Source: Candidatus Coatesiibacteriota bacterium (GTDB taxonomy: Bacteria; RBG-13-66-14; B26-G2; JAUVZD01). From it: 64,000 nucleotides of DNA. The position numbers and the translations under genes were made by a program. Under the pieces are notes generated by a model. It saw only the letters and a list, made by a program, of their open reading frames with translations, made no database searches and was not told where the DNA came from. Position 1 is the stretch's first letter. Every line of letters starts with the position of its first letter. The stretch lies in contig JAUVZD010000011.1 of assembly GCA_030602715.1 (NCBI GenBank), positions 47,961 through 111,960 of the forward strand, in the 5' to 3' direction. Shown piece by piece: positions 19,211-26,590 of the stretch.

Positions 19211-20158
19211 TCACACTACAAAGTTAAACAGATAGCCAGTGAGGATGATGCTGACGGTCAAGATGCCTGCGAATATCAAAATCAGGCGTGTCTTCATCAC
19301 CTGCCGTAAGATGATGAACTCCGGCAGGGAGAGGGCGGTAACCGCCATAAGGAAAGCCAGGGCGGTCCCCAGAGGGAGCCCCTTTTCCAAAAGGGCGGTC
19401 ACTATAGGTATGGCACCGGCGGCACCGGCGTAGAGGGGGACGCCCAGGAGCACCGCCGTTGGAACTCCCCAGAGGGTGGACTGTGAGGAGAAGCGCAGGA
19501 TTATATCCCCGGGGATGTATCCATGGATGAAGGCACCGACAGCGATGCCGATGACGATAAAGAGCCAGATCCTCTTGAGAATATCCCGGGTATAAGCCAC
19601 AGCATAACGAAGGCGTTCCCGCTGACTCCACTGCTTTTCTTCCACCTCACCAAAGTGAATATTACGAACATGGTCCTGCAAGAATCTATCCGGGCGCAGC
19701 CAGCCGATGACCAACCCTGAGACGACAGCCACGACAAGACCGGTACCAAGATAAATCAAAGCCACCTTCCAGCCGACAAGCGCGATTAGCAATATTAGAG
19801 CTACCTCGTTCACCATCGGGGCGCTGACCAGGAAGGAGAAGGTGACCCCCAAGGGGACGCCGGCTTCAATGAAGCCGATGAACAGCGGTATCGCAGAGCA
19901 GGTGCAGAAGGGGGTGGCTACGCCTATCCCGGCGGCGAAGATATTGCCGACGACCGGAAGTTTTTGGGAGAGGAATCGCCGCACCCTTTGCGGGGGCAGG
20001 TAACTGCGCACATAGCTGACCATAAAGATGACCACCAACATCATGAAGAAAATCTTCATGGTGTCCCAGATGAAGAAGTTCAACGCCTCCCCCAGACGGT
20101 TCTCCGGCGAAAGCCCGATCAACTCATAGACCAACCAGTCGGCGATGGGTTTGAACAA
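19211..20158 (-). CDS. permease of the ArsP / YraQ (UPF0718) family
   Basis: 315 residues, about eight membrane helices. It has the diagnostic Cys loop ATPFCTCSAIPLFIGFIEAG near residue 80 and the matching FLVSAPMVNEVALILL; a second half repeats the fold (YAGAAGAIPIVTALLEKG). ArsP members export trivalent organoarsenicals; others are unassigned. TTG start with AAAGGGA upstream. Third gene of the arsR-thioredoxin-permease operon, 11 bp after the thioredoxin-like gene, so regulation by ArsR and a metalloid role are likely. Confidence 0.85.
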   Translation of the reverse strand: MFKPIADWLVYELIGLSPENRLGEALNFFIWDTMKIFFMMLVVIFMVSYVRSYLPPQRVRRFLSQKLPVVGNIFAAGIGVATPFCTCSAIPLFIGFIEAGVPLGVTFSFLVSAPMVNEVALILLIALVGWKVALIYLGTGLVVAVVSGLVIGWLRPDRFLQDHVRNIHFGEVEEKQWSQRERLRYAVAYTRDILKRIWLFIVIGIAVGAFIHGYIPGDIILRFSSQSTLWGVPTAVLLGVPLYAGAAGAIPIVTALLEKGLPLGTALAFLMAVTALSLPEFIILRQVMKTRLILIFAGILTVSIILTGYLFNFVV

Positions 20159-20169
20159 AATAGTTCCCT

Positions 20170-20424
20170 TTAGTCTTGGCTGGCGAGGGCGTTTACGATC
20201 AGGGTGGTCAAACGGGCTTTATCGGGCACGGTGCCGTCGGAATGGACCAGCTTCCCGTCAATAACCACACCGGGGGTCATGGGGGCGCCGTAAGAGGCAA
20301 TCTTCTTTATATCGGTGACCTTGACCACTTCGGCATCCAAAGCCATCTCGGAGACAATCTGTTTTGTGGTCTTTTCCACTTGATTGCATTTGGGACAGCC
20401 CATTCCCAGTATCTCAATCTTCAT
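20170..20424 (-). CDS. thioredoxin-like small redox protein (CPKC)
   Basis: 84 residues: MKIEILGMGCPKCNQVEKTT carries the CxxC near residue 10, and APMTPGVVIDGKLV supplies the cis-Pro loop. It belongs to the small thioredoxin-fold family found next to ArsR and UPF0718 permeases. It may reduce or pass on the permease substrate or its partner cysteines. AAAGGGG site before the ATG. Confidence 0.85.
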   Translation of the reverse strand: MKIEILGMGCPKCNQVEKTTKQIVSEMALDAEVVKVTDIKKIASYGAPMTPGVVIDGKLVHSDGTVPDKARLTTLIVNALASQD

Positions 20425-20464
20425 AGCTAAATACCCCTTTTAAGGATAAGTGAATCGTCTCCAC

Positions 20465-20824
20465 TTAGGAAGCATCTCGCCCGGACCTGGCGGAACAGCA
20501 ACCGCTGGCAAGCCTCTCATTCAACCTCTCCCGGTCCTCAATTATGAGCTTATCTTCGGCAATTTGAGCCAGTATCGCCGATATGGTACCCATAAACTCT
20601 GCATTTGACTTATCAATAGAATAATGCACCCATCTCTCCACCCGTTTGGCGCAGACTATCCCCGCGTGGCGCAAGACCGCACAGTGGCGAGAGACCGTCG
20701 GCTGGGAGAGCCCCAGGACGGCGACCAGGTCGCAGACGCAGAGAGGTCCGTCGCTGAGCAGAGAGAGGATTCGCAGACGAGTGGGGTTGGCGCAAGCTTG
20801 AAGCATTTGGATGATTTTTTCCAT
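20465..20824 (-). CDS. arsR: ArsR-family metalloregulator
   Basis: 119 residues, winged helix. It has ANPTRLRILSLLSDGPLCVCDL, with the CxC metal site of ArsR repressors in helix alpha-3, the recognition helix LSQPTVSRHCAVLRHAGIV, and a C-terminal SGCCSARSG that may add ligands. It represses at a site overlapping its own promoter (20865-20883). It leads the minus-strand operon with the thioredoxin-like protein and permease. A truncated paralogue lies at 22571-22690. Confidence 0.92.
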   Translation of the reverse strand: MEKIIQMLQACANPTRLRILSLLSDGPLCVCDLVAVLGLSQPTVSRHCAVLRHAGIVCAKRVERWVHYSIDKSNAEFMGTISAILAQIAEDKLIIEDRERLNERLASGCCSARSGRDAS

Positions 20825-21023: not shown

Positions 21024-21611
21024 ATGAAAATCAAAACAGCCTTCTCTATTATTCTTGCCGTTTTTCTCGTTGCCAGTCTCACTTATTTGATCTATAGAGA
21101 AATCGACCAGCGTAAGGAAAAATCCAATATAACCAGCAAAGACCACATTGCCAACGAACCCAATTGGGATATAAATAATGACATTATTGAAAAAGCGAGT
21201 GATAATATGTCAAATGATAATGAAGCTAACAATGACAATTCATCACAAAAACCAATAGAAAACAACTTCAAAGTGGTCACTTATTTATTTCATAAAACTC
21301 ACCGCTGTCCAAGCTGTAATACAATTGAAGATCTTACCACAAAGACCCTTAATAAATATTTTTCGGCTGAACTCCAAAAGAAGGAGCTGGAATTTATTTC
21401 TATAAATGTTGACGAACCACAGAACAGACATTACATAGAAGACTATCAGTTATTCACTATCTCCCTGGTAATTGCACTTTATGATGGTAATAGGGAGGAA
21501 AAATGGCAGAATTTGGACAAGGTGTGGGTCTATCTGAACGATCAAGAGAAATTTAGCCAGTATATTATGACCAGCATCAAAAGCTATCTTTCCGAATCAG
21601 GGATAGAATAA
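21024..21611 (+). CDS. arsF: ArsF-family thioredoxin-fold protein, membrane anchored
   Basis: 195 residues. N-terminal membrane anchor (residues 5-25), an Asn/Asp-rich linker, then a thioredoxin-like domain with THRCPSCNTIEDLTTKTL (CxxC near 95) and INVDEPQNRHYIEDYQLFT. These segments match proteins annotated as nitrophenyl compound nitroreductase subunit ArsF, from arsEFG-type clusters acting on aromatic arsenicals (family knowledge recalled, not searched). AAAGGAG site. The ATG of the ArsG-like gene follows its stop codon directly. Codon use is clearly AT-richer than the surrounding genes. Confidence 0.75.
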   Translation: MKIKTAFSIILAVFLVASLTYLIYREIDQRKEKSNITSKDHIANEPNWDINNDIIEKASDNMSNDNEANNDNSSQKPIENNFKVVTYLFHKTHRCPSCNTIEDLTTKTLNKYFSAELQKKELEFISINVDEPQNRHYIEDYQLFTISLVIALYDGNREEKWQNLDKVWVYLNDQEKFSQYIMTSIKSYLSESGIE

Positions 21612-22292
21612 ATGCTTCTGTTTTTTGCCACTGCTCTCTGGTTAGGAATACTAACCTCTATTAGTCCATGCCCCTTAGCCTCCAATATTGCTGCCGTCTC
21701 TTATACTTCACTACGGCTAAATAGACGCTTTCAGGCACTTTTCTATGCATTAGTCTATACTTTGGGAAGAAGTATAACTTATATAGGAATTGGCTTTCTA
21801 ATCATCAAAACCCTGATAACTATTCCTACTATCTCTCAATTCCTGCAACTATATATCAATAAGATACTGGGGTTACTATTAGTTGTGACCGGTATGCTTT
21901 TGTTGGACCTTATCAAACTTAAAATGCCCAGGCTATCTCCTTCAGAAAAAATGCAGGTCAAATTTGACCGTCTGGGTATTATCGGCTCGTTTTTCCTGGG
22001 TATTCTTTTTGCTTTGGCTTTCTGCCCGGTCTCGGCAGCTTTGTATTTTGGAAGTCTTATCCCCCTTGCTCTACAGTCCAATTCAAGAATTATAATGCCT
22101 TTATTATATGGGATAGGGACTAGTTTTCCTGTTTTGTTTTTCTCATTGGTGGTCGCTATATGGTCACAATATGCCAGTAATATATACAAGAAATTAATTA
22201 GAATAGAGTTCTATTTACGCAGGATAACCGGTGTTATATTTATTCTGGTGGGAGCTTATTACATTCTGGCTTATGTTTTTGAAATTTTTTGA
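21612..22292 (+). CDS. arsG: ArsG-family (DsbD/CcdA-like) membrane transporter
   Basis: 226 residues, six to seven membrane helices. Two paired motifs are typical of the LysE/DsbD-like fold: ILTSISPCPLASNIAAVSY near residue 20 and LFALAFCPVSAALYFGS near residue 140. It matches ArsG-type efflux permeases encoded after ArsF. The likely role is electron transfer or efflux for an arsenical. It starts immediately after the arsF stop, so translation is coupled. Confidence 0.75.
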   Translation: MLLFFATALWLGILTSISPCPLASNIAAVSYTSLRLNRRFQALFYALVYTLGRSITYIGIGFLIIKTLITIPTISQFLQLYINKILGLLLVVTGMLLLDLIKLKMPRLSPSEKMQVKFDRLGIIGSFFLGILFALAFCPVSAALYFGSLIPLALQSNSRIIMPLLYGIGTSFPVLFFSLVVAIWSQYASNIYKKLIRIEFYLRRITGVIFILVGAYYILAYVFEIF

Positions 22293-22306
22293 GTGAGAGG
22301 AAAAAA

Positions 22307-22546
22307 ATGAAGATTACTGTTGCCGGACCAGGATGCCCACGGTGTAAACAGACAAAAGAGAATTTGATTAAAGCCTGTAAAGAGCTAGGAATAGAGGCGG
22401 AAATTGTATTTATTAACAATGTATTTGAATATATGAAAATGGGAGTCCGAACGACTCCAGCAGTTCTCATTGATAATAAGATTGTTGTATCTGGTTTTTC
22501 ACCCAGTGTGAGTCAATTGAAGAAGTTTTTATCCACCGAATTATAA
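22307..22546 (+). CDS. thioredoxin-like small redox protein (CPRC)
   Basis: 79 residues, MKITVAGPGCPRCKQTKENL, with CxxC near residue 10 and RTTPAVLIDNKIV as the cis-Pro loop. Paralogue of the protein at 20170-20424. The ATG at 22307 has GAGAGG upstream; a TTG at 22289 overlaps the arsG end and is less likely. Last gene of the arsF-arsG-trx unit. Confidence 0.85.
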   Translation: MKITVAGPGCPRCKQTKENLIKACKELGIEAEIVFINNVFEYMKMGVRTTPAVLIDNKIVVSGFSPSVSQLKKFLSTEL

Positions 22547-22841: not shown

Positions 22842-22920
22842 TATAGATAAATAGTAAATGGGTGGCTACTCAACCGTCCAGGTGTCATCAATAGTTTTTA
22901 ACCTAAGGAGTGGTGGAGGT

Positions 22921-24180
22921 ATGCCGAAAAGAAAGGGAGGAATCCCTACCCTGACAAGTAAAGCGCCCACAGCCGGTCTTCTTTCGGTGATGGTCGCTTT
23001 ATTTGTTTTCTCTCTAGTGCCGACTGTTACCTGGGGACAGCCGGCTCCCAGACCCCCAACAAATCTCCAGGGAGAGGACTTCCCCCTTGATGACGGAAGA
23101 CGCATTCAACTCACCTGGGCTCTCTCCCCGGATGACAGAGAAGGGGGCTTGGTAGAGGAATACATCCTCCTGCGCAGTACCAAAGAGGAAGGACCCTACA
23201 CAGAGCTTCCCTACAGCATCCCTCTGGGTTCGGATAGCTATGTAGATTCCGGCGAGGTGGATGAAAACGGGGTAACCGTAGTGGAAGAGCCGAGAAACAA
23301 CATAAAATTCTACTACAAAATCATAGCCCTGGGAAAGGGAGGCGTGCGCAGTGAGGAATGCTTGATTGATGGGCCGGTTGTGGCTACTCGCCAGTGGTTC
23401 CACCCCGGACGAGTAAACATGCTGGTGGCAAGCATCGTCCTCTCCCTGCTCATCCTCTTCTTCATCTGGCAGGCGTCCCTGGGTAAGGAGTTGTACATCC
23501 GTCCCCTCGCCGGACTGGAAGCGGTTCAGGAAGCCATCGGTCGCGCCACCGAGATGGGAAAACCGGTGCTCTTTATCCCCGGCATTATGGACATGGATGA
23601 CATCCAGACCATCGCCGGAGTGACCATCCTGGGCCGGGTAGCTCGTATGGTAGCGGAGTATGACGCTGATATCCTGGTGCCCTGCTCCCGTTCATTGGTC
23701 ATGACCATCGCTTCGGAGGTGGTGCGGGAGGCTTACCTGGACGCCGGCCGTCCAGATGCCTTTAAGCCGGACAACATCCGCTATCTGACCGACGACCAGT
23801 TCGGATATGTCGCCGGCGTGGACGGTATTATGCTCCGTGAGCGACCGGCGGCAAACTTCTACCTGGGCACCTTCTACGCCGAATCCCTGATCCTTGCCGA
23901 GACCGGCGCCTCCGTGGGAGCCATTCAGATAGCGGGAACTGCCATGCCCAGCCAGCTTCCCTTCTTCGTCGCCGCCTGCGACTATACGCTGATAGGCGAG
24001 GAACTCTTCGCCGCCAGCGCCTATCTCTCCAAGGAGCCCAAGCAGTTGGGCAGTCTGGTGGGGCAGGACTGGGGAAAGTTAATCTTTCTCCTCTTCATCA
24101 TCATCGGCTCCATCATAGCCATCTTCAACCAGCTCAATCCGGACCTGATCAGCATCAAGTCCTGGTTTGAGATACAATAG
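22921..24180 (+). CDS. FN3-containing membrane protein (DUF6754-like), gene 1 of the operon
   Basis: 419 residues. The order is: signal peptide (LLSVMVALFVFSLVPTVTWG); a fibronectin-III-like domain (PTNLQGEDFPLDDGRRIQLT, WALSPDD, EEYILLRSTKEEGPY, YYKIIALGKGG); a membrane helix (MLVASIVLSLLILFFIW); a roughly 190-residue alpha/beta domain opening GKPVLFIPGIMDM; a final helix (LIFLLFIIIGSIIAIF). I associate this layout with DUF6754 proteins from candidate-phylum genomes, from memory. Function unknown. ATG at 22921 with GGAGGT directly upstream. Three membrane proteins follow in the same direction with gaps of 17-42 bp. Confidence 0.65.
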   Translation: MPKRKGGIPTLTSKAPTAGLLSVMVALFVFSLVPTVTWGQPAPRPPTNLQGEDFPLDDGRRIQLTWALSPDDREGGLVEEYILLRSTKEEGPYTELPYSIPLGSDSYVDSGEVDENGVTVVEEPRNNIKFYYKIIALGKGGVRSEECLIDGPVVATRQWFHPGRVNMLVASIVLSLLILFFIWQASLGKELYIRPLAGLEAVQEAIGRATEMGKPVLFIPGIMDMDDIQTIAGVTILGRVARMVAEYDADILVPCSRSLVMTIASEVVREAYLDAGRPDAFKPDNIRYLTDDQFGYVAGVDGIMLRERPAANFYLGTFYAESLILAETGASVGAIQIAGTAMPSQLPFFVAACDYTLIGEELFAASAYLSKEPKQLGSLVGQDWGKLIFLLFIIIGSIIAIFNQLNPDLISIKSWFEIQ

Positions 24181-24197
24181 AAGGGGGGAGGAGAAAA

Positions 24198-24818
24198 GTG
24201 AAAAAACAGTTTCCCCTAGCCATTGTATTTATCGCCGGCATGATCTTCATCGTGCAGTTCTTCTCCCCGGCATTCACCCCCATTCAAGAGCGCTTCACTC
24301 ATTGGTATATCGTCGTAGCTGTCTTCGCCTTCGTTTTGGGCTTAGCCAACCTGACCAGACTCAATCTGCAGAAAATTCATCGCCAACAGGAGGGCTGGAT
24401 TTACAGCATACCCCTGCTCATTGGTCTGGCGGGAATGGCTCTCTGCTCGTTCATCTTCGGCATTGAAGAAGGACCCTTCGTATGGCTATTTAACAACATG
24501 ATGCTTCCCATGTCTGCGACCATGTTCTCTCTCCTTGCCTTCTTCGTGGCTTCCGCTTCGTATCGCGCCTTCCGTGCCCGCCACAAGGAAGCGGTTATGC
24601 TATTGGTCGCTGCGGTCATCGTCATGCTGGGTCAGGTCCCCATCGGCTCCGCCGGCTTCATGGAACATCTGAGGCTCTCCGATATCACCCAGTGGATTAT
24701 GGCTTATCCCAATATGGCCGGTCAGCGGGCAATTATGATCGGCGCCGCCCTGGGGGTGGTGGCTATCTCCTTGCGCATCCTTCTGGGCATTGAACGTGCC
24801 TATCTAGGTGAGGATTAA
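24198..24818 (+). CDS. integral membrane protein, gene 2 of the operon
   Basis: 206 residues, about six helices, GTG start with GGGAGGAGA. Loops are short, with basic clusters (SASYRAFRARHKEA) facing the cytoplasm. No family recognised. It begins 17 bp after the FN3 protein. Confidence 0.7.
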   Translation: MKKQFPLAIVFIAGMIFIVQFFSPAFTPIQERFTHWYIVVAVFAFVLGLANLTRLNLQKIHRQQEGWIYSIPLLIGLAGMALCSFIFGIEEGPFVWLFNNMMLPMSATMFSLLAFFVASASYRAFRARHKEAVMLLVAAVIVMLGQVPIGSAGFMEHLRLSDITQWIMAYPNMAGQRAIMIGAALGVVAISLRILLGIERAYLGED

Positions 24819-24854
24819 TCCCCTATCCTAAGGTAAAAACGAAAGGGAAAAACA

Positions 24855-25751
24855 ATGGGACTCGTAAAGACTATGTCCAGCTTAGATAGGCGGATTATCT
24901 TCCTAGTCGTCGCCCTGGCGGTAATCATCCCCCTGCTTTTACCCATCGGTCTGCCTATTAAACCTACCGCTCCGGTTAAAGCGTTTTATGATTCCACAGA
25001 GTTGATACCCGAGGGCTCTTATGTGCTTATCTCCTTTGATTACGACCCCGCCACCATGCCCGAGCTTCAGCCCATGGCTATCTCCCTGCTCTATCACTGT
25101 TTCAGCAAAAAATTGAAGGTGGTAATGATGGCCCTCTGGCCCCAGGGTCCTCAGATGGCTGACCTGGCTATGGAGGTGGTCAACCAACAACTGCAAGCTG
25201 AGGGCAAACCCCTGCCGGAATATGGTAAAGACTATGTGAACCTGGGATACAAATCCGGGGGTGGTTTGGTGATTATCGGTCTTGCCACCAACTTCGGCGC
25301 CATCTTTCCCCTGGACACCAACGGAATTCGTATCTCAGAACTTCCGCTCATGGACAAAGTAAAATCCGCCCACGATCTGCAAGCGGTGTTCTCCCTCTCC
25401 GCCGGAGACCCGGGCATCCCCGCATGGGTTATGGTCAGCCGTATGGCTGGTTATCCCACACCGCCCCAGCCGGGTGAGACCGATATCACCGGTAAGATGT
25501 TAATCCTAGGTGGTGCCACCGCAGTCTCCGCCCCACAATTCTACCCCTATCTCAACACCAACCAGATGCAGGGGCTTCTGGGGGGAATGCGCGGTGCCGC
25601 CGACTACGAGACGCTACTCGCATTACCCGGCACAGCGAGTGAGGGTATGGACCCTCAATCTATCGCCCACTTGGTAATCGTGATATTCATCATCATGGCA
25701 AATATATTCTTCTTCCTGGAGAAACGCCAGGAAGAGAGGAAAGCAACCTAA
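24855..25751 (+). CDS. two-helix membrane protein with central alpha/beta domain, gene 3 of the operon
   Basis: 298 residues. N-terminal helix IIFLVVALAVIIPLLLPIG and C-terminal helix IAHLVIVIFIIMANIFFF bracket a roughly 230-residue domain. That domain has strand-loop-helix units (IPEGSYVLISFDYDPATMPE, KVVMMALWPQGPQ, SGGGLVIIGLATNFG, GKMLILGGATAVSAPQF), suggesting a Rossmann-like or periplasmic-binding fold. No catalytic motif recognised. AAAGGGA site. Confidence 0.7.
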   Translation: MGLVKTMSSLDRRIIFLVVALAVIIPLLLPIGLPIKPTAPVKAFYDSTELIPEGSYVLISFDYDPATMPELQPMAISLLYHCFSKKLKVVMMALWPQGPQMADLAMEVVNQQLQAEGKPLPEYGKDYVNLGYKSGGGLVIIGLATNFGAIFPLDTNGIRISELPLMDKVKSAHDLQAVFSLSAGDPGIPAWVMVSRMAGYPTPPQPGETDITGKMLILGGATAVSAPQFYPYLNTNQMQGLLGGMRGAADYETLLALPGTASEGMDPQSIAHLVIVIFIIMANIFFFLEKRQEERKAT

Positions 25752-25793
25752 CTCCCCCCGGGGGAGAGACCCTTTACGGAGAGGAATTAAAAA

Positions 25794-26501
25794 ATGGAAA
25801 TCGCAAATATACCCTTCTGGGATTTCTTTGGAGTGTGGGTTGCAGCCCTCCTGACCCTGTTTATCTTTTCCTTTCTTTATAAGGACAACCCATTCTACAA
25901 GTTCGCCGAGCACCTCTTTGTGGGCATATCCGCCGGCTACTTTGTCGGTTACTACTACTATAACGTGCTCTTGCCCAACTTCTGGGAGCCCTTCTACTAC
26001 CAGGGGCGTTATGAGTATCTCATCGCCGTAATCCTGGGAATTACCATCCTTTTCCGCCTCTCCCGCAAGCAGGCTTGGGTGAGCAGATTTGGCTTCGCCT
26101 TCGTCATCGGCTGTGGTGCAGGCATCAACTTCATCGCCTACCTCCAATCCAACGCCCTGGCACAGATATACGGCACCATCACTCCACTGGTCAGTCTGGT
26201 ATCCGGAGAGGGGGGCATCCTGGTTGACTGGAAAAACACCGTCTTCAACCTGGTGGCGATTATCGGGGTATGCTCCGCCCTGACCTACTTCTACTTCTCC
26301 AAACCCCACAAAGGTTTTTTGGGGGGTGTGGCTCGTCTGGGCATCTGGTTCCTGATGATCTCCTTCGGAGCCTCCTTCGGTTACACTGTCATGGCTCGTA
26401 TCTCCCTGCTCATCGGGCGAATGCATTTCCTCATCTTTGACTGGATAGAGACGACAATAAATGTAATCAATGGAAACATCGCCATAGGGTCCACTTTCTG
26501 A
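25794..26501 (+). CDS. integral membrane protein, gene 4 of the operon
   Basis: 235 residues, six to seven helices, rich in aromatic residues (GYFVGYYYYNVLLPNFWEPF). No family recognised. A strong GC hairpin terminator follows 60 bp later and closes the operon. Confidence 0.7.
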   Translation: MEIANIPFWDFFGVWVAALLTLFIFSFLYKDNPFYKFAEHLFVGISAGYFVGYYYYNVLLPNFWEPFYYQGRYEYLIAVILGITILFRLSRKQAWVSRFGFAFVIGCGAGINFIAYLQSNALAQIYGTITPLVSLVSGEGGILVDWKNTVFNLVAIIGVCSALTYFYFSKPHKGFLGGVARLGIWFLMISFGASFGYTVMARISLLIGRMHFLIFDWIETTINVINGNIAIGSTF

Positions 26502-26560: not shown

Positions 26561-26590
26561 AATCCCCCCCCGCTCTGCGGGGGGGGGATT
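26561..26590 (+). terminator. rho-independent terminator of the four-gene operon
   Basis: AATCCCCCCCCGC / GCGGGGGGGGGATT arms with a 3-nt loop and TTTTTT after. It can also serve the minus-strand lipoprotein gene (26635). Confidence 0.85.

Follow-up and report, generated by a model that had tools for sequence, protein, structure and literature searches.

Four consecutive genes for membrane proteins without assigned function, here called g1 to g4, raise the question of whether they encode a complex of their own or one part of something larger. They lie in a 64,000-nucleotide stretch of a Candidatus Coatesiibacteriota genome (contig JAUVZD010000011.1), referred to below as the window, and a sequence-only reading had taken them for the subunits of a single membrane complex led by a protein with an FN3 domain. 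Our analysis supports a conserved unit of four genes, but one that appears to be no more than the membrane half of a larger system, which also includes c0, c1 and small partner proteins. We give an even chance to the reading that g1 to g4 form one inner-membrane complex of a seven-to-eight-component system, in which the ATP-binding cytosolic part, c1-c0-c2, is shared.

The gene g1 encodes a clear, nearly full-length member of DUF6754 (PF20539), with an E-value of 9e-123 and 408.9 bits against a cut-off of 27 over profile positions 2 to 250 of 257, and the likeness to DUF6754 noted in the sequence-only reading was correct. Among 86 DUF6754 loci with their neighbourhood, 79 carried g1-g2-g3-g4 in this order on one strand, four were cut by contig ends and three deviated (a missing g4, a tandem g1 and a messy contig). 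The order is therefore kept in 79 of the 82 uncut loci, with median gaps between successive genes of 11, -1 and 3 bp, and one locus (L037) contained three cassettes in tandem. Because the gene order is kept in other genomes, the set in the window is not a product of chance, and the expectation that the four genes stay together elsewhere was confirmed.

Clustering of the genes next to the cassette revealed that three further genes, c0, c1 and c2, recur beside it across phyla. The operon c12-c2-c1-c0-g1-g2-g3-g4, or part of it, was seen in unrelated families, and all seven core hidden Markov models matched in 31 of 77 loci. The protein c1 is a MutL/GlmL-type ASKHA protein of about 610 aa, c0 has about 375 aa and c2 is small (about 115 aa), while c12, which precedes c2 in many operons, is a two-helix membrane protein with a weak YcxB/PH-like match. 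Whole-genome searches of 290 genomes of at least 90% completeness found DUF6754 in 85 genomes of 60 families. Of these 85, 81 contain c0, which is absent from all 205 others; full-length c1 occurs in 78 of the 85 and in one other genome, c2 in 76 and in that same outsider, and g4 in 84 and in two or three outsiders. The sole outsider with c1 and no DUF6754 (G264) has its c1 near a contig end, which suggests that DUF6754 may be unassembled there.

Forty-one of the 85 genomes carry 121 DUF6754 copies, mostly together with one full-length c0 and one c1. The genome of the window itself has three cassettes (C17, C15 and C4) but a single c0, which lies about 4 kb upstream of the cassette on C15, and a single c2 and c1, both on C10. 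Paralogous cassettes within one genome share 44–78% identity in the DUF6754 domain, predicted to be cytosolic, 28–52% in the putative ectodomain of g3 and 0–47% in FN3. The copy numbers and the combination of a conserved inside with a divergent outside fit a shared cytosolic module with interchangeable outer faces. A single cytosolic module alongside several membrane platforms would also suit an assembly or secretion platform. PilM and the cytosolic domain of GspL are ASKHA folds that scaffold the type IV pilus and type II secretion platforms, respectively; c1 would resemble them, and g1 to g4 would be an envelope platform exporting or assembling a surface structure, with an ASKHA protein joined to membrane proteins whose FN3 and g3 domains point outward. 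However, no secretion ATPase, pilin, prepilin peptidase or secretin was found among the recurrent cassette neighbours and no Pfam secretion family scored over cut-off, and we consider such a platform unlikely. The absence of a transporter or secretion signature from the earlier description likewise held, as no subunit matched a characterised transporter or secretion family in Pfam, NCBIfam or PADLOC.

The protein c1 has the full domain of the MutL/GlmL family, accessory proteins of methylaspartate mutase (PF13941, E = 1e-124, 417 bits against a cut-off of 27), and keeps the ATP-site/ASKHA phosphate motifs DCGSTTTK, DIGGATTD and GSGG. It differs from MutL/GlmL in a C-terminal extension of about 120 aa, in its tie to membrane genes and in its scores, which lie under the NCBIfam GlmL and ornithine cut-offs (223.6 against 475 for the GlmL equivalog NF040745, 205 against 600 and 171 against 204). 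Membership of this Pfam family could mean that c1 assists a B12-dependent mutase in the manner of GlmL and is linked to the membrane genes only incidentally. This role is made less likely by the sub-cut-off GlmL scores and by the absence of a B12 mutase from the recurrent c1 neighbours across phyla, which are c0, c2, c12 and g1 to g4, although not all neighbours were annotated one by one; moreover, of the 79 genomes that contain full-length c1, all but one have DUF6754. We regard the mutase helper as scarcely credible. In five genomes (L111 to L115), c1 and c0 are fused in single open reading frames (ORFs) of 949–1037 aa located away from DUF6754. These fusions are diverged paralogues, probably belonging to a system of their own, and they provide indirect support for c1 and c0 working together.

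The cytosolic module would meet the membrane complex at g1, which consists of a signal peptide or N-terminal helix, FN3 (residues 40–159), a transmembrane (TM) helix (162–186), the Rossmann-like DUF6754 domain (189–372) and a second TM helix (373–405). An AlphaFold2 model built on a 51-sequence alignment reached a mean pLDDT of 89.9, with low confidence at the N-terminus including the signal helix. In this model, residues 40–159 form an FN3 beta-sandwich with a Z-score of about 12 to many FN3 structures; Pfam fn3 scores on four of the 51 relatives and not on the window copy, and sequence profiles of the PDB gave only weak FN3 matches for g1. The positive-inside charge averaged over the alignments predicts that the DUF6754 domain is cytosolic and that FN3 lies outside. 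Across the family, the majority residue is common to 74% of the sequences in the DUF6754 domain and to 28% in FN3. FN3 shows the lowest conservation of all parts and some family members lack it, so that it is a variable accessory and not part of the core. The suggestion that FN3 could contact an external partner thus retains the predicted outside location, but it concerns an accessory.

Residues 196–369 of the g1 model superpose on the Sir2 structure 1s7g_D (Z 12.4, root-mean-square deviation 3.2 Å, 138 aligned residues, 12% identity), which places the DUF6754 domain near the Rossmann folds of the Sir2 class (DHS-like, NAD/FAD-binding). As this match is a single row in a list otherwise made up of FN3, the fold is a lead and not proof. 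The sirtuin motifs GAGxS, TQNxD and HG were found in 1, 0 and 0 of the 51 g1 rows and are effectively absent, and there was no SIR2 Pfam match on g1 at E-values up to 1. The N-terminal part of c0 is by profile an RnfC/NqrA-type barrel-sandwich, although the RnfC_N matches are weak (12 of 24 members, best E = 2e-5), and its C-terminus holds a weak KOW/SH3-like segment. These two resemblances would be compatible with a redox or electron-transfer complex with a logic akin to Rnf/Nqr. The barrel-sandwich domain is, however, also found in carriers and adaptors, and c0 differs from RnfC/NqrA by the lack of conserved Fe-S cysteines, by a middle domain without assigned family and by its KOW/SH3-like end. 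No match to an Fe-S or flavin family was obtained, and g1 to g4, c0 and c2 contain no conserved Cys/His set for Fe-S or haem: at 90% conservation there is no Cys or His in c0 or c2, and in g1 to g4 only C353 (g1), H272 (g3) and H172 (g4) reach this level. A redox role is less likely because conserved metal ligands are absent, and we rate it as very unlikely. Comparison of c0, c1 and c2 with PDB sequence profiles yielded nothing convincing.

The subunits have the architecture that the sequence-only reading had described: g1 is FN3-TM-alpha/beta-TM, with the FN3 domain confirmed by the AlphaFold2 structure, the two polytopic proteins g2 and g4 have six TM helices each, and g3 is TM-alpha/beta-TM. 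Alignment and hydropathy show a conserved RAFRAR loop in g2, which is probably N-in/C-in, and g4, with invariant E39 and R202 in the alignment, is probably N-out/C-out. In g3, a TM helix (residues 12–28) is followed by a Rossmann-like alpha/beta domain (31–259) and a C-terminal TM helix (260–297); the AlphaFold2 model has a pLDDT of 95.8 and a pTM of 0.91, and the averaged positive-inside charge predicts that the alpha/beta domain faces outside. No Pfam family scored over cut-off for g2 (53 members) or g4, and none was matched by more than three of 63 g3 members, all of these matches being weak. Against Pfam and NCBIfam together, g2 to g4 gave only sub-cut-off noise (e.g. TMD0_ABC in two of 53 members), and PDB sequence profiles yielded nothing convincing. 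Profile comparison showed g1 and g3, and likewise g2 and g4, to be unrelated.

The best structural match of the g3 ectodomain is one lobe of ribose-binding proteins, with a middling Z-score of 9.3 tied with other Rossmann folds; Foldseek of g3 returned nothing with an E-value under 0.001. Resemblance to a lobe of a sugar-binding protein, together with variable outer parts and a constant inner domain, would be in line with a sensor or regulatory complex that signals an outside ligand, bound by FN3 or g3, to cytosolic c0 and c1. The g3 matches, however, include many short-chain dehydrogenase/reductase folds, and no kinase, cyclase, transcription factor or receiver protein was found among the recurrent partners. 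A sensor is in our view quite unlikely.

In the inner-membrane complex with a shared ATP-binding part, the MutL/GlmL-type c1 would work with the barrel-sandwich/KOW protein c0 and the small c2. We infer that c1-c0 would dock onto each cassette at its conserved cytosolic DUF6754 domain and that an ATP-dependent shape change would be relayed via g2 and g4 to the Rossmann-like domain of g3 and the variable FN3 outside. The complex would thereby move, assemble or gate something at the cell envelope, and different cassettes would serve different outside partners through one common module. Such an arrangement may represent a new class of ATP-dependent envelope machine, in which a MutL-type ASKHA protein and a barrel-sandwich adaptor serve several interchangeable four-subunit membrane complexes and which is widespread in candidate and other bacterial phyla; to this broader proposal we assign a little less than an even chance. 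In group II energy-coupling factor (ECF) transporters, several membrane modules draw on a common energising module. The likeness of these transporters to g1 to g4 with c0, c1 and c2 is one of logic only, as the core set lacks an ABC ATPase, a T component and an S component and has no sequence relation to them.

Several observations weigh against this reading. The Fisher p-values of the co-occurrence (about 1e-61 to 1e-68) are not corrected for shared ancestry. Four DUF6754 genomes are without c0 and c1 and three more are without c1, and a real exception among them is a single-contig genome of 5.0 Mb (G070; loci L118 and L123) that has the cassette and c2 and neither c0 nor c1. Within the window the cassette is unaccompanied, its genome carrying c0, c1 and c2 on other contigs. 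The stronger conservation of the cytosolic domain could reflect structural constraint and not a shared partner. Physical interaction of the parts and ATP hydrolysis by c1 are presumptions of this reading, and to our knowledge MutL/GlmL activity is itself unproven, even in the setting for which the family is known.

In the window itself (Table 1), the ORF calls agree with the four consecutive intact plus-strand genes of the earlier description; the gaps between them are 17, 36 and 42 bp and internal stops are absent. The frame of g1 opens already at an ATG at 22858, and the start preceded by AAGGAG is 22921. Ribosome sites, held to be good throughout, are so for g1, g2 and g4, while that of g3 (AAAGGG) is weak. 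The strong terminator is real and terminator-like on the minus strand too, where it serves a convergent gene (27141–26635). The promoter-like site found no support, as the promoter scan found no sigma-70-like plus-strand site between 22546 and 22921, and such sites are near chance across the region (11 found, 8.0 expected from shuffled sequence).

Table 1. Coordinates of the four-gene cassette and its terminator in the window.
Feature	Position	Strand	Description
g1	22921..24180	+	419 aa ORF
g2	24198..24818	+	206 aa ORF, GTG start with GGAGGAG
g3	24855..25751	+	298 aa ORF
g4	25794..26501	+	235 aa ORF
Bidirectional intrinsic terminator closing the cassette	26563..26587		Hairpin of 11 pairs, 10 GC, then TTTTTT

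Translations read by eye indicate a thioredoxin-like protein, a CcdA/DsbD-like membrane protein and a small redox protein 5' of the cassette (21024–22546, plus strand), and a permease, a small thioredoxin-like protein and an ArsR-type regulator in one ordinary cluster at 19211–20824 (minus strand). The redox-type genes at 21024–22546 are not among the recurrent cassette neighbours in other genomes. A conserved metabolic neighbour was also sought and rejected; ABC transporters, ExbD-like and TonB-receptor-like genes, again read by eye, recur within single phyla only (Riflebacteria and Fermentibacteria).

Named sources of DUF6754 include Coatesbacteria, Stahlbacteria/WOR-3, Fermentibacteria, Riflebacteria, Planctomycetota and Bacillota bins, and g1 of the window groups with Coatesbacteria in the tree (98/91). 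DUF6754 genes labelled ANME-2, Methylomirabilis and Erysipelotrichia (L038, L071 and L068) nest within Fermentibacteria or Riflebacteria, and these contigs look misbinned. A mobile or viral origin of the cassette was dismissed, with no match in plasmids, phages or IMG/VR, as was an anti-phage defence system, with no PADLOC match for seven proteins. Short cassettes lacking FN3 contain an extra protein between g2 and g3, of 191 aa (L080:8558-9133) or 165 aa (L101:4593-5090); the former, from the C4 cassette of the window genome, is helical and probably secreted, and the latter looks unrelated. The genomes of one family (L089, L104, L105 and L107) have additional g3 genes downstream of the cassette, L104 as many as three, as though the outer subunit had been multiplied. 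The Ca. Sabulitectum silens contig (L060) has split copies of c1, c0, g3 and g4, a pattern that points to frameshifts in the assembly and not to genuine breaks.

DUF6754 and PF20539 are named in none of the papers found, subscription papers lying outside the search, and the literature on GlmL/MutL and on the host phyla held nothing relevant to the system. DUF6754 is a domain of unknown function, and none of the sources searched describes the four-gene cassette or its partners c0, c1, c2 and c12. Among the proteins of the system only PF20539 and PF13941 are named, no Pfam family over cut-off holding across the members of g2, g3, g4, c0 or c2; a catalogue entry may exist in COG or eggNOG. Taken together, the system fits none of the known kinds tested, and the complex and its job are undescribed in the searchable papers and family libraries. 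Such a system of seven to eight genes, inherited together almost perfectly, lacking an assigned function and with several candidate phyla among its named hosts, marks a large gap in the knowledge of the bacterial envelope. If the proposed reading is true, the MutL/GlmL family of ATPase folds would gain a role outside B12 mutases, and PF20539, so far an orphan domain, would become the inner component of a defined complex open to purification and testing.

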